From: Stutzerimonas stutzeri KOS6
Lineage (GTDB): Bacteria; Pseudomonadota; Gammaproteobacteria; Pseudomonadales; Pseudomonadaceae
Direction: 5' to 3'
Length of the DNA: 64,000 nt
NCBI RefSeq assembly: GCF_000307775.2
Contig: NZ_KK020675.1
Span: 446,553 to 510,552 of the forward strand
Shown here piece after piece: positions 37,598 to 48,970 of this stretch. The notes below the pieces were generated by a model that saw only the letters and a list, made by a program, of their open reading frames with translations, did not search any database and was not told the DNA's origin. Every line of letters begins with the position of its first letter. The first letter of the stretch is position 1. Position numbers and translations under genes: made by a program.

Positions 37598-39964
37598 TCA
37601 GAACAAGCCGAGCTGCCCGTCGACCAGCGAGGCGAAGTCATCGCCCACGAATGGCAGTATCGCGTCGGCCACCGGCTGTAGCTGACGCGTCACATAGTGG
37701 TCGTAGTCGATGGGCGACGAGCGGGTTTCCAGCGGCTCGGGGCCGGTAACTGTGATCAGGTAGCTGATCCAGCCACCGTTCTGGTACTGCCGTGGCCGAC
37801 CGTGACGGTCGTTGTAGTCGTCGGCCAGGCGCGCCGCCCGCACATGTGGCGGGACGTTGCGCTGGTAGTCATCCAGCCGGCGACGCAGGCGCTTGCGGTA
37901 GATCAGCAGCTCGTCGAGCTCGCCGGCCAGCGTGCGCCGAACGTAGTCGCGCACGTAGTCCCGGTGCGGCTGGCGATGGAAAATACGCCGGTATAACTCC
38001 TGCTGAAAGCCCTGGGCCAGCGGCGACCAGTCGGTACGCACGGTTTCCAGCCCCTTGAACACCATCCCGTCGCTGCCATCCGGCCGGGTGACAAGGCCGG
38101 CATAGCGCTTCTTGCTACCCTCCTCGGCGCCGCGAATGGTAGGCATCAGGAAGCGCCGGAAGTGCGTTTCGTACTGCAATTCCAGCGCACTGGCCAGTCC
38201 GTACTCGGCCTGCAGACGCTCTCGCCACCAATCATTGATGTGCTGGACCAGCTGACGCCCGATCAGCGCCGCCTCGTCATCCGAATGCGCCTTGCGCAGC
38301 CAGACGAACGTGGAATCGGTATCGCCGTAGATCACCACATGCCCCTGGGCCTCGATCAATTCCCGCGTGCGACGCATGATTTCGTGACCGCGCAGGGTGA
38401 TCGACGACGCCAGCCTCGGATCGAAGAAGCGGCAGCCGCTGGAACCGAGCACGCCGTAGAAAGCGTTCATGATGATCTTCAAGGCCTGCGACAATGGCTT
38501 GTTGTGCTCGCGCTTCGCCGTCTCGCGGCCTTCCCACACCCGCTCGACGATCGCCGGCAGGCAGTGCCGGGTCCGCGAGAAACGCGCCCCGCGAAAGCCC
38601 GACACCGAGTCGTCGTCGGCCGGTTGACGGAGCCCCTCGATCAACCCCACCGGATCGATGAGAAAGGTGCGGATGATCGACGGGTACAGGCTCTTGTAAT
38701 CGAGCACCAGCACCGACTCGTAGAGCCCCGGCTGCGAATCCATTACGAACCCACCCGGGCTGGCTTCGGCCTGGCGCTCGCCGAGGTTGGGCGCGACGAA
38801 CCCCTGGCGGTGCATCAGCGGCAGGTACAGGTGCTCGAATGCCGCCACCGATCCGCCGCTGCGATCGGCGGCCAGACCAGTCACGGTGGAGCGCTCCAGG
38901 AGGAAGGTCAGCAGCTCGGTACGGGCGAAGATCCGCGTTACCAGCTCACAGTCCTTGAGGTTGTAGCGCGCCAGTGCCGGCTTGTCCTCGGCGAACATCC
39001 GGTCGATTTCCGCCATACGCTGGTAGGGATTGTCGATCGCCTTGCCTTCGCCCAGCAGGGTCTGGGCGACGTTCTCGAGGCTGAACGAAGGAAAACTCCA
39101 GGTAGCCGAACGCAGTGCCTCGATACCGTCGATGATCAGCCGTCCCGCTGCCGCGGCGAAATAATGCCTGGCGCGACCGCCATGCTCGCGCCACTCCATC
39201 TGCGCACCGCCACGACCGAGACGCAGGGGTACCTGCAAACGTTTCGAGTGATCGTGCAACACGCGCAGATCGAACTGCACCAGGTTCCAGCCGATGATCG
39301 CATCCGGATCATGCTCGGCAAACCAGGCGTTCAACCGCTCCAGCAGCTCGGCGCGGGTCTGGCAGTAATCGAGCGGGAAATCCAGCGCGTCCCCCTGCTC
39401 GCTCGCCGGCCCCAGCATATAGACCTGGCGCTGGTCACAGCCTTGCAATGCGATTGAATAGAGATCGCCGCGGGCATTGGTTTCGATATCCAGCGAAACC
39501 AGCCTGAGTGCCGGCCGATAGTCCGGCGCCGGCCTGAGCTGCGCATCGATCTGGGCACCGCCAGCCGCGGGCACGCCAGCGAAGCACACCGGCGCGGTGA
39601 TGAAGCGCTCCATCAGATAGCGCTCGGGCGGGCGGATATCAGCCTCATAGACATCCACCCCAGCATCGCGCAGTAGCCGCGTGCAGTCCAACAGGCGACG
39701 ATAGGAGCGGCAGTACAGCCCCATCACCGGACGATGGCGGAAATCATGCAAGGCCAGCAGCCGCAGCTCGGCGTCACGCTCACCACGCAACAACGCCTCG
39801 ACGCGCCCCCGCTGCTCCTCCGGAATGAAGGCAACCGAATGCTGATGCGGCACGCGCACCTGCCGAGCTCCTTCATCGGTGGCCAACCAGAAGCTGATCT
39901 CCGTGCCATCTGGCGTATCCCGCCAGTGCCGCGTCAGGATGAAACCCTGTCGTGGTTGCGACAT
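37598..39964 (-). CDS. polB: DNA polymerase II (family B)
   Basis: 788 residues, against 783 in E. coli. Exonuclease motifs: SLDIETN (Exo I), [14 protein letters not shown] (Exo II), YNLKDCELV (Exo III). Polymerase motifs: [13 protein letters not shown] (A), [15 protein letters not shown] (B), YGDTDSTFV (C). All catalytic acids are intact. ATG 39964 is preferred to the GTG one codon upstream, because GGGA sits five bases before it. It restarts stalled forks and does translesion synthesis. An SOS box was looked for upstream and not found. Confidence 0.96.
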
Positions 39965-40925
39965 CACATTCCCGCCGCCATACGCAAAAAAATCCGAATT
40001 CTGACGAGCCCAACGGCCTAGGTTACATGCCGTGGCGTAGAGAGCGTGATCTGGGCCCTGTTTTTTGGTGGTCGTTGCAGCTATAAGCGCGTCGTTGGTG
40101 CAGACTTCAGCCGGTTCTCCAGCTTGTTGCGTCGCAATTGGGCACGGTGATTTACGACATTTTTATGACATCTGCGTATTCAGATGAATCACGAACAATT
40201 GCGTAGCCAACGTAAGAGCAAATTGATCCGATGGATGATACGTCGCAAATCTAGCCACAAAAAGAAACCATAAGGAAAATTAGGCAGATCCAACATGACC
40301 GATCTAACTGCTCCTTTAGTATCTATGGCGCATGGCCATCATTTAACTATATGATCTCTTCGTTATTGCCCCATTGAGGCCCAGACCGAGGAACAGGATG
40401 AGCTTGCGATCCACAAGGCGGGATCGATTCATGGTTGTCTTTGCTGCCTTCTTATCGATATTCATTCTCACTGAAATGCATTCTCTACTAAACGTTAACT
40501 CAAAAGGGAATAGCGCCGATCCAAGCATCACTTGGTGACAGCCCTAACTTAACAACATCCCTTTAGTTTTACCTTCAGACATCTTGCTTAGAAAGCTCAG
40601 AATACGGCCAATAATCTATACATGGCTTCTATCAAGCCCAAGCGCATCTACCGACTTACCAAACTCAATTGCAGTCACAACTTATTGCCCAGCGCTTAAA
40701 ACCAAGTAACAATTGCCCGATCCTGATCTACCAAAAGTAAGTGAATCATTGCCAAATGCCGACCTCACGAGCAAGATCCAATAGATGGTAATGACGAATT
40801 CAGCATGCTCAGCTAAAAAATGAGCAAAACGCAAAGTTTCTATCGCCCAGAAAACAGGCAATGCCTCAGCGACACCGGCAACACCCTTGGAAGAATTGAG
40901 CTCTATTACCTCAGGATACAACGCA
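39965..40925. other. AT-rich intergenic region, left edge of the island
   Basis: About 960 bases, visibly poorer in G and C than the flanking core. The change begins just after the polB start at about 39990. Only one short plausible reading frame is seen (40398-40538, listed separately). Minus-strand frames at 40343-40531 and 40682-41035 have no ribosome site or recognisable sequence. Possible decayed island DNA. Confidence 0.6.
40398..40538 (+). CDS. Candidate 46-residue membrane protein
   Basis: A short frame starting MSLRSTRRDRFMVVF with AGGA five bases before the ATG. Layout: an Arg-rich N-terminus, one hydrophobic segment (about residues 12-25, FMVVFAAFLSIFILT) and a polar tail ending in ITW. 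This positive-inside pattern fits a small inner-membrane protein or signal peptide. I recognise no family. Small size and AT-rich context mean it could be chance. Confidence 0.35.
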   Translation: MSLRSTRRDRFMVVFAAFLSIFILTEMHSLLNVNSKGNSADPSITW

Positions 40926-43702
40926 ATGACGATGCTTGAGCATGCTTTGACCAAGGGGCCCAGAGGGATGCCTTTTTTGGTTCTTCTCTGCGGTTTGCTT
41001 TGTACGGCGGCCGTTTGGTTCACCTTGTATGCCACTCAGGAAAAAGCAGCGGATCAGAAATTTCAGCAACTGGGTGATGAGGTGCTGGAAGCAATCGAGA
41101 AGCGGATGAGCAGCCATCGCCAGATACTACTCAGTAGCGCAGGCTTGTTTGAGGTAAGCAATGACGTCAGCAGGGAAGACTGGCGACGCTTTGTGCAACG
41201 TATGAATCTGGAGTCCAACTATCCGGGAATTCTCGGGCTTGGTTATAGCCAGGCCGTGAGGCCAGAGCAGTTGAACGCCTTTGAGGAGGGCGTACGCCAA
41301 GAGGGCTTTGCCGAGTTCACCATCAAACCGGCCGGCAAGCGTGATCTGTACACGTCGATCATCTATCTGGAACCATTTGAAGGGAGAAATTTGGCGGCAC
41401 TCGGCTTCGACATGTTTTCCGAGCCCATCCGGCGAGCAGCTATGACTAGAGCGGTTGAAACCGGTATGGCTCAACTGAGCGGCAAAGTCACTCTCGTCCA
41501 GGAAAACAATGGGCCTGCGCAAGCGGGCTTGCTGATGTATGTACCCGTTTATCAATCTGGGGCTGTATTGAGTTCACCTGAGCAACGCTGGGAGGCTTTG
41601 CGTGGATTCGTCTACAGCCCCTACCGTGTAAACGACCTGATGCGAGCAATACTCGATGGCCGGGATTTGCAAGTCGACTTTGCACTCCATACCGGCGTAT
41701 TGGGCTCTCCTGAACAGCTTATTTTCAACAGCCACCCGCGAATTGAGTCGGCAGATTTGCCGTCGCGCACAAAGCGACTAGAACTTTTTGGCCAGCCTCT
41801 CTATGTAAGTTTCTATCCGCAGCCAGGTTTTTACGAGGATTTCCATCAGGGCCAGGGACTATTGCTGGTGCTTGGCATTGTGATCAGTCTGCTTCTGTTC
41901 CTGTTGGCACAAGTGCTGGCGAATGGTCAGCGGCGGGCCATTACACAACTGAGAGTGCTGGAAAAGAGCGAAGCTCGCCTCGGCGCCATCGCAATGGTTT
42001 CCAACGATTTAATCTGGGAACTCGATGTCGAAAGCCGGACGCTCTCTCACAACCAGCGAAGCAGCGTCAGTCAGCTACCCAAGAGCCTCATGATTGATGA
42101 TTGGCTGAGATGCATTCATCCAGATGACAAGCAACAACTCGTCGAAAGCTTTCTCCACGCTCTGGAGGGTAAAGACCTTACATGGGTTGCAGAATTTCGA
42201 TACCTAGACAGATACAGCAATATCGGAATACTTGAATCCAAGGCAGCCTTCTTAAGAAATGAAGAAGGAAAGGCCATTCATGTTGTAGGCGGCGCACAAG
42301 ATTTGACGCGTCGACGCAAGATGCAGTCTGCGATGATGAATATGGCAGCGAGCGTCGCCGACCTTGAGGACGAGCAGTTTTTTACTGCCCTACTTAGAAA
42401 CCTGGTCCATGGTCTTGAGGCAGACGGCGGTTGCATCGCCAAGATAGACGAGGAGGACCCGTCCACAGCAAGAACATTAGCGGTTGTTGTCGATGGCGAA
42501 CGCGTCAATGACTTCAGCTATCCAGTTGCTGGAAGTCCTTGTGAGAACCTACTGTCAAACAAGGAGTGTTTTGTACCTGAAAATCTTGCTGAACGTTTTC
42601 CGCACGCAAGTGGTGTGCCGGGTATCCAGCCGAGGACCTATGTCGGCGGCCAACTTCTTGATGAGCAAGGTGTCGTCATAGGTTTTATCTATGTGCTGTA
42701 CAGGACTCCTGTTGAGCGCACGGATTTTATGACCTCGGTATTGCAGGTTTTTGCAGTGCGCGCTGCGGCGGAAATACGCCGCATTGAGGCTGATAAAAAG
42801 CTTCGAGAACAAGCAGACCTACTCGATCATGCAAAAGAATCAATCATCGTACTGGACCTGGACTTGAACGTCAGATTCTGGAACAAAGGTGCCGAAGAAA
42901 TGTATGGCATTGCTAGAAGTAATGCCATAGGTCACAACGTGAGCCAGTTTTACGCCGAAGCGTCCGCCCTCTCTTTTGCCCTATCGGAAACGTTGCATAA
43001 CGACCAGTTCAGCGGAGAATTCCAGCAGGTGGTTGAGTCCAACACCTCGACTGCTGTAGTAGATGAAAACTGGACGCTAATTCGAGATGCATCCGGCACA
43101 CCTAAATCAATCCTTAAAGTTGGTATTGACGTCACGGATCGAAATGAAGCCGAGGCTCAGATTAAGAAGCTGGCGTACTTCGACACACTGACCGACTTGC
43201 CTAACCGCAGGCTGTTCATGGAGCGTTTGAAGGATGCAACAGAAAGCAGCACGGCCAGCGGCAGAAGTTCCGCACTGCTTTTCATTGACTTAGACAACTT
43301 CAAGAACCTGAATGACTTGCATGGCCACCTCAAAGGCGATGAATTTCTCGTATCCGTCTCTCGGGTGCTCTCTAAAACCGTACGCAAGGGCGATACCGTA
43401 GCACGGCTAGGCGGTGATGAGTTCGTCATTATCATTACCGAACTGGATGCGAATCGATCCATCGCGAAACAGCAGGCCTCTCAGGTTGCCAAGTCAATTA
43501 TCAAGGCATTCGAAAATCCACTCGACATACAACATTTGGTTGTATACGCCACTGCAAGTATCGGTATAACTGTGTTCAACGACGCCAGTCATCATCTTGG
43601 CGAGTTGCTCAGGCAAGCCGACCTGGCCATGTATGAAGCAAAGGATTTTGGACGCAATACCTACAGGATTTATGACGCTAGAAACGACGAAGCCCTCAAC
43701 AC
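40926..43702 (+). pseudogene. CHASE-PAS-GGDEF half of an IS-split c-di-GMP enzyme
   Basis: The 5' part of a 1181-codon gene cut by an IS21 element at 43703. ATG 40926 is chosen (AGGA ten bases upstream); a TTG at 40887 is less likely. It encodes TM1 (about 15-35), a periplasmic CHASE domain (about 65-280), TM2 (LVLGIVISLLLFLLAQVL), PAS and GAF-like regions, a second PAS, and a GGDEF domain with the intact GGDEF at residues 829-833. The EAL half is 46306-47074. After the last native codon the frame runs into the IS and stops at 43811, so a truncated diguanylate cyclase may still be made. Confidence 0.9.
43696..43702. repeat. Target site duplication, left copy
   Basis: TCAACAC immediately left of the IS tip TGCGGATTCC. 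The identical copy is at 46299-46305. Confidence 0.9.
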
Positions 43703-43704
43703 TG

Positions 43705-43773
43705 CGGATTCCACGCCATTCGGACACTCAGCCCACGCTGATCCGGACACCTGTTCCACGATCATTCGGACAG
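43705..43773. repeat. IS left-end array, three degenerate 23-bp repeats
   Basis: Units at 43705, 43728 and 43751, each 23 bases with the pattern ..TTCCACG...AT[CT]CGGACA., inverted relative to the right-end array. They are probably IstA binding sites. Confidence 0.8.
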
Positions 43774-43807
43774 GCAGTCGGAGCGCAGCGACGCAGGGCT
43801 GGCATTG

Positions 43808-44563
43808 TTAGTCCGGGTTGGCTGACGTCGTCAATTCCTGCGTCCGTTTGCGCATTGATTCACCCTTCAGATTGATCCGGTAAGCGTTGTGCACCAGGCG
43901 GTCGAGGATGGCGTCGGCCAGGGTCGGATCGCCGATCAGTTCGTGCCAGTTGTCCACCGGCATCTGGCTGGTGACGATGGTCGAGCGCTGGCCGTAGCGG
44001 TCGTCCAGTAGCTCCAGCATGTCGCGCCGCTGTTCGGCGGTGAACGGGGCCAGGCCCCAGTCGTCGAGGATCAGCAGGTCGGTCTTGGCGTAGCTGCTCA
44101 TCAGCTTGGCGAAGCGGCCGTCGCCATGGGCCAAGCCCAGCTCTTCCAACAGGCGCGGCAAGCGCAGGTAACGCACGCTGTAGCCCTCTCGGCAGGTCTG
44201 GTGGGCCAGGGCGCAGGCCAGCCAGGTTTTACCGACACCGGTGGGGCCGCCGATGATCAGGTTGAGGCCGTCGCGTAACCACTGACCGCTGCTCAGCTGG
44301 AGGATCAGCGCCTTGTCGAGTCCGCGCGGGCTGCGGTAGTCGATGTCTTCGAGGCAGGCGTTGTGCTTGAGCCGGGCCTGACGCAGGCGGCTGCTGAGGC
44401 GCTTGTCGTCGCGTTCGGTCAGTTCGCGGTCGACCAGCAGGCCGAGGCGTTCCACGAAGCTCAGGCTGTCGATGTCGGGGGTTTTCAGTTGCTCGGCGAG
44501 TGCCTTGAGCATGCCGGTCAGGCGCAGGGTCTGGAGCTTGTCCAGGGTCGGATGGGGCAGCAT
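43808..44563 (-). CDS. istB: IS21 helper ATPase IstB
   Basis: 251 residues from ATG 44563 (AAGGAA site), 17 bases after the istA stop. AAA+ ATPase: Walker A GGPTGVGKTWLA, Walker B LLILDDWGLAPF, sensor region TIVTSQMPVDNW. It forms the DnaA-like partner that selects target DNA and activates IstA. The longer open frame to 44707 overlaps istA and is not used. Stops 105 bases inside the left end. Confidence 0.96.
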   Translation of the reverse strand: MLPHPTLDKLQTLRLTGMLKALAEQLKTPDIDSLSFVERLGLLVDRELTERDDKRLSSRLRQARLKHNACLEDIDYRSPRGLDKALILQLSSGQWLRDGLNLIIGGPTGVGKTWLACALAHQTCREGYSVRYLRLPRLLEELGLAHGDGRFAKLMSSYAKTDLLILDDWGLAPFTAEQRRDMLELLDDRYGQRSTIVTSQMPVDNWHELIGDPTLADAILDRLVHNAYRINLKGESMRKRTQELTTSANPD

Positions 44564-44580
44564 GGTGGGATTCCTTGTGT

Positions 44581-46110
44581 TCAGTGGTAGTAGCCGGGGC
44601 CGCGCAGATTGGCGTGGTCGTCCGGCAGCAGGGGCAGGTTGGCTTGAGCCAACGGCAGGCTTTCCAAAGCCTGGCGCAGGATCGATTCGAGGCTCTTGTA
44701 GCTGCACGCACCGAGGCTGAGGGCGCGACGGCAGGCCAACTCCAAGCGCACTTCGCCATGGGTCTTGCCCAGGCGCAGGATGCCCAGGCAGGCCCGGTAG
44801 CCTTGGGTTGGGTGGATGCGCCGTTCGAGGATGTGGCTGATCACGCCGGCCGTGTTCGGCCCGGTCTGCTCAGCCCAGCGGATCAGCCGTTGTGGCGTCC
44901 ACTCGGCGTGCTCGCGATGGCTCTTGGGCATGTGCTCGGCCTGTGTGCTGTGCCGGCCCTTGTGCGGTGAGCGAAGGTGGCTGGCCACCCGCTGATTGGC
45001 GTGGAAACACTCGACGGTGCGCGCCGTCAGGCGTACTTCCAGTTGTTTCTTCACCAGTTGGTACGGCACCGAGTAGTAGTGCCCATCAACCTCGACGTGG
45101 TAGTCGATGTGCACACGCGCCTTCTTCCACTCGGCATACACGTAGGGTTGCTCCGGCAGCGGCCGCAGCACCGGACGATCCAGGGCTTCGAAGGCCGAGT
45201 GCCGGGAGCCCGGCAGCTTGCGAAACGGTCGTCGGTTGAGGCGCTCCAGCAATAAGGCGATGGCGCTGTTGAGTTCGTCCAAGGAGAAGAACTGGCGGTT
45301 CCTCAGCGCGGCGAGGATCCAGCGCTCGACCACCTGCACGCCGACCTCGGCCTTAGCCTTGTCGCGCGGCTTACGCGCCCGCGCCGGCACCACCGCCACG
45401 CCATAGTGCTCGGCCAGATCGCGGTAGCTCGGGTTGATGTCCGGCTCGTAGCGATGGCTCTTACTCACCGCGCTGCGCAGGTTGTCCGGCACCACGATCT
45501 CCGGCACGCCCCCGAGGAAGGCGAAGCAGCGGGTATGCGAGCCCAGCCAGTCCGGCAGCTGCTGCGACCAGGTGGCTTCGGCGAAGGTGTAGCTGGAGGC
45601 GCCGAGCACCGCGACGAACACCTGCGCCTGGCGGATCTCGCCGCTGTGCCGGTCGATCACCGGCACCGTCTGCCCGGCGTAGTCGACGAACAACTTCTCG
45701 CCGACACGATGTTCCTGGCGCATCACCACGTCCAGCTTGCCCTGCCAGGCCCGGTAGTGCTCGCAGAACCAGCTGTACTGAAAACCCTGCGGCTGGCTCA
45801 GGCGATACTCCTGCCAGAGCAGCGCCAGGGTCACGCCGGGGCGACGCAGCTCGGCGTGCACCCAAGACCAATCAGGCAGTGGCCGCTGCTCACTGGGCAC
45901 CGCAGGGGCCAATGGGAACAGTTGCTGTTCCAGTTCGGAATCGGACAACGAGCAGGGCCAGGCTAGACCGCTGGCGGCAAAGCGACAGAGGTAATCACCG
46001 GCACTGCTGTGGCCTATGCCCAGACTGCGGGAGATCTTACGGACAGACAGCCCGCAATCGAACTTGAGGCGCAACACCTCACGGATTTTACGCATGGATA
46101 AACGCTCCAC
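44581..46110 (-). CDS. istA: IS21 transposase IstA
   Basis: 509 residues. N-terminal helix-turn-helix (VRKISRSLGIGHSSAGDYL, about 22-40), then an RNase H-like DDE core: KLFVDYAGQTVP (D), EIVVPDNLRSAV (D), KAKAEVGVQVVERWIL (E). A C-terminal beta domain (HVEVDGHYYSVPYQLV) follows. Start MERLSMRKIREVLR at 46110; the next ATG five codons on is an alternative. It binds the terminal repeats and cuts and joins the IS ends. Confidence 0.96.
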   Translation of the reverse strand: MERLSMRKIREVLRLKFDCGLSVRKISRSLGIGHSSAGDYLCRFAASGLAWPCSLSDSELEQQLFPLAPAVPSEQRPLPDWSWVHAELRRPGVTLALLWQEYRLSQPQGFQYSWFCEHYRAWQGKLDVVMRQEHRVGEKLFVDYAGQTVPVIDRHSGEIRQAQVFVAVLGASSYTFAEATWSQQLPDWLGSHTRCFAFLGGVPEIVVPDNLRSAVSKSHRYEPDINPSYRDLAEHYGVAVVPARARKPRDKAKAEVGVQVVERWILAALRNRQFFSLDELNSAIALLLERLNRRPFRKLPGSRHSAFEALDRPVLRPLPEQPYVYAEWKKARVHIDYHVEVDGHYYSVPYQLVKKQLEVRLTARTVECFHANQRVASHLRSPHKGRHSTQAEHMPKSHREHAEWTPQRLIRWAEQTGPNTAGVISHILERRIHPTQGYRACLGILRLGKTHGEVRLELACRRALSLGACSYKSLESILRQALESLPLAQANLPLLPDDHANLRGPGYYH

Positions 46111-46180
46111 GACGACCTCTTCGCTTCGAAAAAGAGGTCGATGGTAGTGAATAAATCCTGCGTAGCTGCCTGCCTGAAAA

Positions 46181-46295
46181 GTGTCCGGATGGCCGTGGAA
46201 TCGGTGTCCGGATGCTCGTGGAATGAGTGTCCGGATCAGCGTGGAATCACTGTCCGGATGTGCGTGGAATGGGTGTCCGAGTCAGCGTGGAATCC
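46181..46295. repeat. IS right-end array, five 23-bp direct repeats
   Basis: Five units with an exact 23-base period begin at 46181, 46204, 46227, 46250 and 46273. Each fits [GC]TGTCCG[GA][AG]T...CGTGGAAT.., with variation mostly in a 3-base spacer. They lie between istA and the right tip. IS21 elements bind transposase at multiple terminal repeats. They are not CRISPR repeats, because there are no spacers. Confidence 0.9.
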
Positions 46296-46298
46296 GCA

Positions 46299-46305
46299 TC
46301 AACAC
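46299..46305. repeat. Target site duplication, right copy
   Basis: TCAACAC immediately right of the IS tip, identical to 43696-43702. Confidence 0.9.
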
Positions 46306-47074
46306 CAGGATCTCGCTATCCACTGAATTCAAGCGCGCACTGGAAAACGGCGAATTTGAACTATGGTATCAGACTCAATTTAATGCCAGCGAAGATGTTT
46401 ACGGAGCTGAAGCCCTCCTGCGATGGCGACATCCCTCGAAAGGACTCATACCCCCTTCCGACTTCATACCTCTCGCTGAACGCTCCAGTTTTATTGTGGA
46501 TCTGGGTCGCTGGATTCTGGACAACGCTTGCCTCCAACTTTCCAGATGGCAAGATAAAATTTCGAATAAACACTTTACGCTATCCGTCAACGTCAGCGTC
46601 CAGCAACTTCGTCAAGATAACTTTGTGGAGGAAGTGCTTCAGTCCATCCAACGCCATAACGTCGCCCCAGGAAAACTTGTACTTGAGCTAACGGAAGGCG
46701 TGCTGGACGAAACTAACGACATCATATCCAGAAGGCTTCACGCATTACGCGAAAGCGGAATCCTCATCTCACTTGATGATTTTGGAACAGGCTACTCCTC
46801 ACTTTCTCGACTCAAGAGAATGCCTTTTGATGAAATAAAGATTGATAAGTCTTTCATCAATGAAATACCCCATAACGAAGACGACTCGGCAATTGTTATG
46901 GCTATATTGGAACTTGGTAAGGCGATGCGTATGAGGGTTGTGGCTGAGGGCGTGGAAACCGCTGAACAGCTTAGCTTTCTTAAACGTAACGGATGCCAGG
47001 CATTCCAAGGCTACTACTATTCTGTTCCAACCCCTAACCCAGTGATCGGCCCCAGCGAGCCTGGGGACGAATGA
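46306..47074 (+). pseudogene. EAL half of the IS-split c-di-GMP enzyme
   Basis: Continues the gene begun at 40926. Joining base 43702 to 46306 reads EALNTRISLSTEFKRALENGEFELWYQ without a frame change. EAL-domain motifs are intact: YGAEALLRWRHP (EAL at 46409-46417), FTLSVNVS, LVLELTEG, ISLDDFGTGYSSLS, IKIDKSFI, VVAEGVET. The catalytic residues for c-di-GMP phosphodiesterase are present. The last 15 residues (VPTPNPVIGPSEPGDE) depart from the usual family ending, so the 3' end may also be rearranged. It lacks its own start signal except through the IS end. Confidence 0.9.
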
Positions 47075-47234
47075 CAAAGCGTTGTTGCGAAGGCTCAGAC
47101 GCTCGGCATAAAAATCGAAGTACGACTCGGTTTGGCTATTGATCGATAGTCATGCCAGAGCGCATCACCCCGCGCGCTGGGCAGTCGTAGCATGTACAGC
47201 GGAACCCCTTCGGCAGCCGTTTCGTAATGAACGC

Positions 47235-47320
47235 GGAAACATCCTGCCCCATGCGTCGCCGGCGATGACGATGCGCTATGCCCACCTTGCGCCAGAGCAT
47301 CTCAAGGATGAGATCAGCCT
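47235..47320 (+). pseudogene. Tyrosine recombinase C-terminal fragment
   Basis: The translation HASPAMTMRYAHLAPEHLKDE is the final catalytic-Tyr region of phage-type integrases (usual form: a conserved H, then TxRYAHL). Nothing upstream in frame gives the rest of the enzyme. The fragment ends at a MITE-like element. It marks a former integrative element near tRNA-Ser. Confidence 0.6.
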
Positions 47321-47322
47321 AG

Positions 47323-47461
47323 GCTCTGTACGAAACGTGCCTGCGCTCGGTGATGCTTCGTTAAAAACGGGTTCGGAATGCTCATTTACAGCACGTAAAC
47401 TCCGCCTCCTCACCCGTTTTTGCCTCGCCTGACCTTCGCTCGACGACTTTTCGTACAAAAC
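47323..47461. mobile_element. MITE-like element, 139 bp, with CTAG duplication
   Basis: Terminal inverted repeats GCTCTGTACGAAA (left) and, inverted from the right, GTTTTGTACGAAA, flanked on both sides by CTAG (47319-47322 and 47462-47465). CTAG is the target duplication of IS5-group elements. There is no transposase gene. Probably a non-autonomous relative of an IS5-type element. Confidence 0.65.
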
Positions 47462-47466
47462 CTAGG

Positions 47467-47837
47467 ACCGCAATCATGGAGAAATGCCTTTCAGCCAGAG
47501 GCAGATCACTAGATCTGCGATATGCCTGCATCCCGGTTTATTTCTCCCTGGACTTGCCTGCGTCGCGGTGTTTGTCGCAGATCTGCCCGCCGTTATTCTG
47601 GGAGCGCAGCTGCTCTCCGCCACCGGGCGTGGATACATTTCCGTGCGGGCTCTTCGGTCTTCTGTCGGCCATAAGTGACGACCTCTTTTAGCTGCTGGAT
47701 ATCGACCGCAATCTCTACATCCGAGCCCACACTAAAGCTGCTCGAGAAATGTTGGACCATCAGAAGCTAGCAAAGAGCCATCCTCATCCTGCTGCTTGTT
47801 TCGACACTACTTCGACAACTGGCCGGTCTAGAAAAGC
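47467..47837. other. Unassigned island-edge DNA
   Basis: About 370 bases between the MITE and the tRNA-Ser terminator. Short frames at 47476-47691 and 47484-47678 are hydrophobic or cysteine-rich but lack ribosome sites and family resemblance. Another frame reads LLDIDRNLYIRAHTKAAREML near 47690-47760 without a start. These look like fragments of decayed genes; none is recognised. Confidence 0.5.
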
Positions 47838-47872
47838 AAAAGCCCCCGAAACTCTAGGAATTTCAGGGGCTT
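47838..47872 (-). terminator. Terminator of tRNA-Ser
   Basis: AGCCCCCGAAA / TTTCAGGGGCT, a near-perfect stem with a 9-base loop, 14 bases past the tRNA 3' end on the minus strand, followed by TTTTGCTTTT. Confidence 0.85.
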
Positions 47873-47885
47873 AGGCTATATATGG

Positions 47886-47975
47886 TGGCGGAGAGATAGG
47901 GATTTGAACCCTAGGTACCCGCGAAGGTACAACGGATTTCGAATCCGTCCCGTTCGGCCACTCCGGCATCTCTCC
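47886..47975 (-). tRNA. tRNA-Ser (CGA)
   Basis: 90 bases with encoded CCA. Acceptor GGAGAGA / TCTCTCC, anticodon CGA in GATTCGAAATC, the long variable arm of a class II tRNA (TTGTACCTTCGCGGGTACC) and T-loop GGTTCAAATCC. It stands alone at the border of the island; tRNA-Ser genes are frequent integrase targets. Confidence 0.97.
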
Positions 47976-47985
47976 AGCGGCGCGC

Positions 47986-48014
47986 ATGATATCAGCTGAA
48001 TCGCGTTTGTCGAA
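47986..48014 (-). promoter_or_regulatory. Promoter of tRNA-Ser
   Basis: On the minus strand TTCGAC, 17 bases, TATCAT, then a GCGCGCCG discriminator. The -10 is good and the -35 moderate. Confidence 0.6.
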
Positions 48015-48100
48015 CCCCAACCGCACAGATTTTTTGCGATTTTTCAGGCTATTGCGACGGCCCGCAGCCAGAACCGAGCGGTGCGGGCCGCGCGGGCCGG

Positions 48101-48970
48101 TCAGGCCGTCAGGCGAGTCAGCGCTTCACGGTATTTGTCGGCGGTCTTCTGCGCGACATCCGCCGGCACCGCAGGAGCGGGTGGCTCCTTGTTCCAGCCG
48201 GTGGACTCCAGCCAGTCACGGACGAACTGCTTGTCGAAGCTCGGCGGGTTCTTGCCTTCCTCGTAGCTATCGGCCGGCCAGAAGCGGCTGGAATCGGGCG
48301 TCAGCACTTCGTCCATCAGGGTCAGCGTGCCGTCTTCATCCAGGCCAAATTCGAACTTGGTGTCGGCAATGATGATGCCGCGCGTGGCTGCGTATTCAAC
48401 GGCTGCGCTATAGAGCGCGATGGACACGTCGCGTACCCGAGCCGCCAGCTCGCTGCCGATGATGGCTTCACACTGCGCGAAGGAGATGTTCTCGTCGTGA
48501 TCGCCCACGGCGGCCTTGGTGGAGGGCGTGAAGATCGGCTGCGGCAGCTTGGCCGCCTCTTTCAGGCCGGCCGGCAGCTGGATGCCGCAGACCGTGCCGC
48601 TCTTCTGGTATTCCTTCCAGCCGGAACCAACGATGTAGCCGCGCACGATGGCCTCCACAGCGACCGGCTTGAGGCGCTTGGCGACTACCGCGCGCCCCTC
48701 TACCAGCGGCAGCTCGGCGGCCGGGACCACATCCTCGACCTTGTCGCCGGTGAAGTGATTGGGAACCAGCCCCTTGAGCTTGTCGAACCAGAAGTTGGAG
48801 ATGGCGGTGAGGATCTTGCCCTTCTCCGGGATCGGCTCGGCGAGAATCACGTCGAACGCCGAGAGACGATCGGTGGCGACCATGAGCATGCGTTTGTCGT
48901 CGATCTCGTAGAGATCACGAACCTTGCCCGAGTAAATTTTCTTCAGGCTGAGGGCGGTGGGACTGGTCAT
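48101..48970 (-). CDS. purC: SAICAR synthetase, long subtype
   Basis: Joins aspartate to CAIR in purine synthesis. 289 residues. Motifs: [70 protein letters not shown] and [15 protein letters not shown]. This is the approximately 300-residue subtype of beta-proteobacteria and yeast Ade1, not the 236-residue form (MEKREELYRGKAKSVY) usual in P. aeruginosa at this same locus after bamC. No part is missing. It sits at the edge of the foreign segment, so replacement by transfer is possible. Confidence 0.95.

Follow-up and report, generated by a model that had tools for sequence, protein, structure and literature searches.

An IS21-family element in the hinge of a GGDEF-EAL gene of Stutzerimonas stutzeri KOS6

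Mobile elements that break diguanylate cyclase and phosphodiesterase genes have been described in Ferrovum myxofaciens, where up to 9 of 41 variable mobile-element disruptions per sample, and 9 of 37 in one sample, are reported to lie in GGDEF/EAL genes (PMC8899612). In the IS21 family of insertion sequences (IS), direct repeats occur at intervals of 23 bp, and a target duplication of 5 bp is reported for the member studied (PMC10122671). The outward -35 box of such elements is described as part of IRR, the right end (PMC9330008). Here, a stretch of 64,000 nucleotides from contig NZ_KK020675.1 of Stutzerimonas stutzeri KOS6 (positions 446,553 to 510,552, hereafter the window) was analyzed, in which a cyclic di-GMP (c-di-GMP) gene of the CHASE-PAS-PAS-GGDEF-EAL type (40926-47074) is interrupted at the hinge between GGDEF and EAL by an IS21 element. 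The locus resembles the F. myxofaciens cases in the class of gene that is broken; the disruptions in that account were variable within populations and repeated, whereas KOS6 presents one insertion in one assembly. It thereby adds one case to what that source reports of such genes as frequent mobile-element targets (PMC8899612). A literature search, screened mostly at listing level, found no published account of the KOS6 insertion; new here are the place of the gene in a 7.9-kb, mostly low-GC insert and its apparently chimeric make-up.

The interrupted gene and the inserted element

The features of the split gene and of the element are as follows.

40926..43702, forward strand: left half of the split gene, 925 codons and two bases, with CHASE, PAS, PAS and GGDEF domains and with the GGDEF motif and an RxxD I-site
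43696..43702, forward strand: left copy of the target-site duplication, TCAACAC, read directly
43703..46298, reverse strand: complete ISPpu7-like IS21-family element, 2596 bp, recognized from plasmid copies, terminal repeats and family profiles
43703..43716, forward strand: terminal inverted repeat of the istB-side end, adjoining the GGDEF half, 14 of 14 bases paired
43808..44563, reverse strand: istB, helper ATPase, 251 amino acids (aa), no internal stop; NF038214, 281 bits (cut-off 200)
44581..46095, reverse strand: istA, transposase, 504 aa, no internal stop; NF033546, 309 bits (cut-off 160)
46180..46294, forward strand: terminal repeats at 23-nt spacing in the istA-side end, adjoining the EAL half, from the repeat search
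46285..46298, forward strand: terminal inverted repeat of the istA-side end, pairing with 43703..43716
46299..46305, forward strand: right copy of the target-site duplication, TCAACAC, read directly
46306..47074, forward strand: right half of the split gene, 255 codons, with a complete EAL domain

The two coding pieces measure 2,777 bases (40926-43702) and 769 bases (46306-47074), giving 1,182 codons including the stop, and neither contains an internal stop. The frame arithmetic of the initial annotation, in which the rejoined halves encode 1181 residues, was therefore correct. A Pfam scan placed CHASE, PAS and GGDEF on the left half and EAL on the right half, the latter over profile positions 3-236 of 236. 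Inspection of the motifs revealed GGDEF at residue 829 with RxxD at residue 820, five residues ahead of it, and EAL, NVS, ELTE, DDFG, KID, EGVE and QGY in the right half. Catalytic motifs are present in both domains, and those of the EAL half are the ones expected for an active enzyme. The proposal of a left half that keeps CHASE, PAS and an intact GGDEF motif, and of a right half that keeps a complete EAL core, could thus be confirmed by both the profile scan and the motif reading.

The element begins TGCGGATTCCACGC and ends GCGTGGAATCCGCA, with a perfect terminal inverted repeat of 14 bp. Its two genes gave matches to the Pfam families rve, Mu-transpos_C_2 and IstB_IS21, and each of the three IS21-family features examined could be recognized, namely istA (DDE transposase) and istB (AAA+ helper) in tandem, terminal repeats spaced by 23, and a short target duplication. 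The istA-side end is presumably the left end of the element. In a plasmid collection, 91 records matched the element, with a coverage of at least 80% in 70, and the ten best copies aligned over element bases 1-2596. The best-ranked place, on pPNP1 of Pseudomonas sp. JS425, was 97.7% identical over the full 1-2596. When five plasmid copies were opened, the first and last 16 bases were the same as in the window element in all five, and each copy had a target duplication of its own (7 bp in four, 6 bp in one). Together with the perfect terminal repeat, these full-length copies bear out the earlier statement that the IS ends are intact. The KOS6 element shares its length of 2,596 bp, its end bases and the placement of istA and istB with the ISPpu7/ISPpu23 group of Pseudomonas plasmids (names from record annotation), from which it differs by 2.3-9.2% nucleotide divergence across the 20 best records of the 91; a single record of the 91 has a best place at least 99% identical, presumably partial. 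The ISPpu7/ISPpu23 copies reside on plasmids, whereas the KOS6 copy is single and lies in a chromosome-sized contig. It was the one copy in the 4.95-Mb genome, the other matches being its own end repeats and one 26-base match. Related copies at an expectation value (E) <= 1e-100 were present in 14 of 55 other genomes of the genus (15 of 56 including its own), some of them partial or 67-79% identical.

The TCAACAC duplication was confirmed as a perfect 7-bp repeat directly outside both element ends. The chance of a 7-base match at two fixed positions is about 6e-5, and the boundaries are fixed independently of the duplication since the plasmid copies align over 1-2596 with the same ends and with duplications of their own. 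The 7 bp found here and the 6-7 bp of the plasmid copies, set against the 5 bp given in PMC10122671, show that the duplication length varies among members. The initial annotation had called the insertion clean and recent; it is clean, and recent in a relative sense, as judged from the perfect duplication and from transposase genes and gene halves that are free of stops.

The history that very probably explains this arrangement is that an element of the ISPpu7 group of IS21 transposed into the hinge codons between GGDEF and EAL of a once-continuous gene, leaving the 7-bp duplication. Before the insertion, the host gene would have been one continuous gene for an accessory c-di-GMP enzyme. As both halves are open (925 and 255 codons) and carry conserved motifs, the gene appears to have been coding-intact when hit. 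An assembly or cloning artefact is a general possibility where one assembly is at hand, but it is hardly credible here, given the perfect duplication at both exact ends and a surrounding contig of 998 kb; moreover, with a single IS copy in the genome, there is no repeat to confuse the assembly.

Evidence for a once-continuous gene

The same genome encodes an uninterrupted paralogue of up to 1,318 aa (G000:C2:958519-962475; L066:3520-7476, minus strand) with the architecture CHASE3-PAS-GGDEF-EAL. Each half of the split gene was compared to this protein separately rather than as a rejoined sequence. Residues 340-921 of the left half matched paralogue residues 475-1055 with 58% identity, and residues 4-243 of the right half matched residues 1064-1303 with 60% identity. 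The two matches are 8 residues apart in the paralogue; in the split gene, the hinge likewise comes to 4 + 1 + 3 = 8 when the broken codon is counted once. Such agreement in order and hinge length would be expected after a clean insertion, but not if the halves were two genes of independent history. The paralogue and the split gene are thus alike in GGDEF-EAL and in hinge length and differ in that the paralogue has a CHASE3 sensor in place of CHASE and is uninterrupted.

The same order could be observed in solved structures, two of which match both halves in order: 5m3c (GGDEF 4-164, EAL 175-419) and 4rnh (21-190, 198-445). The same chains match both halves in the GGDEF-EAL structures 4rnh and 4rnf (each named 'Motility regulator'), 5m3c and 5xgb (PA0861); we take 4rnh and 4rnf to be MorA and PA0861 of 5xgb to be RbdA. 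The KOS6 gene differs from these solved proteins in its N-terminal CHASE sensor and in its interrupted hinge.

Several results weigh against a once-continuous gene. The initial annotation expected a homologue joining the two halves in order, at a full length of about 1180 residues. A joining homologue exists in the form of the same-genome paralogue, but it is up to 1,318 residues long with a CHASE3 sensor, and neither a homologue of the expected length nor an orthologue was found. No full-length orthologue was present among the best matches listed for the left half in 58 relatives, or among those listed for the right half in 56 genomes of the genus, where the best match outside its own genome reached 48-49% identity. 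The left half, searched at E <= 1e-150, also gave no full-length orthologue in 398 genomes of the family, 398 of a second genus (g36) and 390 of the order; in these overlapping sets, two candidates were scored in each genome shown, and the collection comprises one genome per species. Named genomes yielded 21 loci with best segments 24-38% identical and none full-length, viral contigs yielded no uninterrupted orthologue, and among the 5,000 matching plasmid records listed, of at least that many, none covered 80% of the query and all were below 60% identity. With no orthologue in any of these searches, the intact gene itself was not seen. Furthermore, the paralogue match stops short of the final 12 residues of the EAL half (47036-47074), and the C-terminus may therefore have differed originally.

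The paralogue sits in a cluster (L066:504-14961; G000:C2:955503-969960) adjoining a gene judged by eye to be probable glmS. Other members of the cluster encode a histidine kinase that carries receiver domains, a 486-aa phytochrome (PAS_2-GAF-PHY) lacking an output domain, and a 1,494-aa fusion protein, CheB-CheR-PAS-GGDEF-EAL.

An apparently chimeric gene and the insert beside tRNA-Ser

Comparison of the N-terminal region revealed a different relationship from that of the output domains. Residues 1-339 (40926-41942 of the window) were 78% identical, without gaps, to the N-terminus encoded at L103:1501-2517 in genus g36, and from residue 340 on, the identity to this protein dropped to 23%. The match to the paralogue starts at that same residue 340, with 53% identity over residues 340-478 and 60% over residues 479-925. 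The best N-terminal matches at E <= 1e-150 came from six genomes of genus g36, and a protein of its own genus, judged by eye to be kinase-like (L006), was 50% identical to residues 1-339. On the simplest reading of these alignments, the split gene looks chimeric: a CHASE sensor and a GGDEF-EAL output would have been fused ahead of the IS insertion. The sharp switch at residue 340 suggests a sensor swap between signalling families, in either direction. Among the best N-terminal matches, the one scanned for Pfam domains, L103, is a CHASE-PAS-HisKA-HATPase-receiver hybrid histidine kinase and not a cyclase.

The interrupted gene lies in an inserted segment next to a tRNA gene, with the following features.

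39974..47831, no strand: mostly low-GC (G+C content) insert of 7,858 bp between polB and tRNA-Ser(CGA), from the comparison of relatives' loci
40015..40059, forward strand: candidate decayed left attachment site, 32 of 45 bases like the tRNA-Ser 3' end and flank
47139..47432, forward strand: phage-type integrase fragment in an open frame; phrog_7269, E 2.1e-6, residues 34-65 (PHROGs)
47886..47975, reverse strand: tRNA-Ser(CGA), the likely integration site

The tRNA-Ser region was found in 53 of the 55 other genomes of the genus, and the loci of the best 29 were compared. The segment is absent from 11 of these 29 loci, in which polB adjoins the tRNA gene (within 1.5 kb) and 67-119 bp take the place of the 7,858 bp. 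Similarity to those 11 relatives ends at 39973 (39966 in one) and restarts at 47830-47833. The gene purC stands on the other side in all 29 loci; in the remaining 18, polB was not within the stretch compared, and these were left out of the boundary analysis. Outside the IS, the GC content of the insert is 45-55%: the two halves of the gene have 51% (left) and 48% (right), and the stretches 40021-40925 and 47075-47885 have 45% and 54%. The IS itself reaches 64%, close to the 63% of the window beyond the insert. From these comparisons, it can be concluded that the segment was inserted beside tRNA-Ser, and its arrival may have been mediated by an integrase.

Eight of the 53 relatives have a second, partial match to the 3' region of the tRNA, approximately 6-50 kb away on the same contig and strand. 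This would be expected where integrating elements make use of a site, and tRNA-Ser(CGA) looks like an integration site shared across the genus. The frame at 47139-47432 gave no Pfam match. The score of the candidate left site at 40015-40059 was equalled by 1 of 2000 shuffles and by 3 of 1262 control windows, which overlap one another near 27.3 kb. In 5 of the 11 relatives' loci, 39984-40059 matches the region around the tRNA. The left boundary gave no repeat of the tRNA 3' end in a search over 39800-48150. As a degenerate left attachment site, 40015-40059 is thus suggestive only. Similar integrase fragments occur near tRNA-Ser in L092 and L084, two of the relatives in which the tRNA end is found twice. 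Inside the insert, 12 nt (47613-47624) also repeat the 3' end of tRNA-Ser (47884-47895) perfectly in inverted orientation, possibly by chance.

Taken as a whole, the locus offers a clean example of an accessory c-di-GMP gene that was apparently built by a sensor swap, placed in a small tRNA-linked insert and then broken. The sensor swap and the entry into the insert may have come in either order; the arrival of the IS in the hinge would have come last.

Probable consequences for c-di-GMP activity

The junctions on the two sides of the element give rise to two further reading frames.

43703..43811, forward strand: tail that the IS adds to the truncated cyclase, 36 residues ending at a stop in 43809-43811
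46181..47074, forward strand: frame open from the IS interior through the EAL half, with the IS-supplied in-frame starts GTG 46181, ATG 46223 and GTG 46241

The truncated left product would have 961 residues, the IS-derived tail included. In the EAL half, the first native in-frame ATG, GTG or TTG is the GTG at 46496, codon 64, within the domain, and upstream the frame is open into the IS back to a stop at 46175. The distal EAL piece would thus be left with no start of its own, and the EAL activity of this gene has probably been lost.

The initial annotation raised the prospect of an unopposed truncated cyclase that could alter biofilm or motility. Such a gain of function, in which the GGDEF piece would raise c-di-GMP and promote biofilm, is in keeping with the GGDEF motif at residue 829 and with a left piece in which the start of the gene, its upstream region and all of its sensory domains are retained. 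It nevertheless appears unlikely. The RxxD I-site at residue 820 is retained, and the role of this site is product inhibition, so such inhibition would be expected of the truncated protein, which the foreign tail of 36 residues may also destabilize. In addition, the whole enzyme may have been a cyclase, a phosphodiesterase or both, and of the 34 GGDEF and 20 EAL matches in the genome, 33 and 19, respectively, lie beyond the split gene. The truncated cyclase is accordingly most likely product-inhibited or unstable, and owing to the redundancy of c-di-GMP genes, a small effect on the cell would be expected. An effect on biofilm or motility is possible but not indicated by the sequence. The split is an ordinary gene disruption by an IS, probably with a small effect, and alone it changes no view of c-di-GMP signalling.

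The insertion could instead have uncoupled the two activities without loss of either, if an outward promoter and a start codon supplied by the IS allow the EAL half to be made as a phosphodiesterase of its own. IS21 elements are named among those that make fusion promoters (PMC9330008). The EAL domain is complete with its expected motifs, and the frame is open from the GTG at 46181 across the EAL half, with more starts at 46223 and 46241. However, no promoter-like site was found in 46090-46420 on either strand (0.3 expected by chance), and no good ribosome-binding site could be seen by eye before the IS-supplied starts. The scan covered the sigma-70 consensus only and was likewise silent over 40000-41000, upstream of the gene (1.4 expected by chance); with few sites expected by chance, the negative result at the IS end weighs little. 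On the assumption that the left end is the one on the istA side, an outward -35 box in IRR would lie at the opposite end of the element and point antisense into the GGDEF half, away from EAL. On balance, a functional split of this kind seems rather improbable. Gene fission by a mobile element, in which an already chimeric gene would have been turned into a cyclase that senses through CHASE and a separately controlled, free EAL phosphodiesterase started from the IS, would be very improbable.

A further alternative, compatible with the insertion history preferred here and concerned solely with its effect, is that the island was decaying and the gene within it dispensable before the element arrived, which would make the insertion selectively neutral. 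This is a real possibility, though one held at somewhat below even chances. The flanks of the island look eroded, being represented by an integrase fragment and at most a degenerate left site; no open reading frame of at least 150 aa occurs in 40021-40886 or 47075-47885, and no orthologue was found among the matches scored or listed in the relatives searched. On the other side, the conserved motifs and the open frames of 925 and 255 codons indicate a gene that was still intact in its coding sequence when the element arrived.

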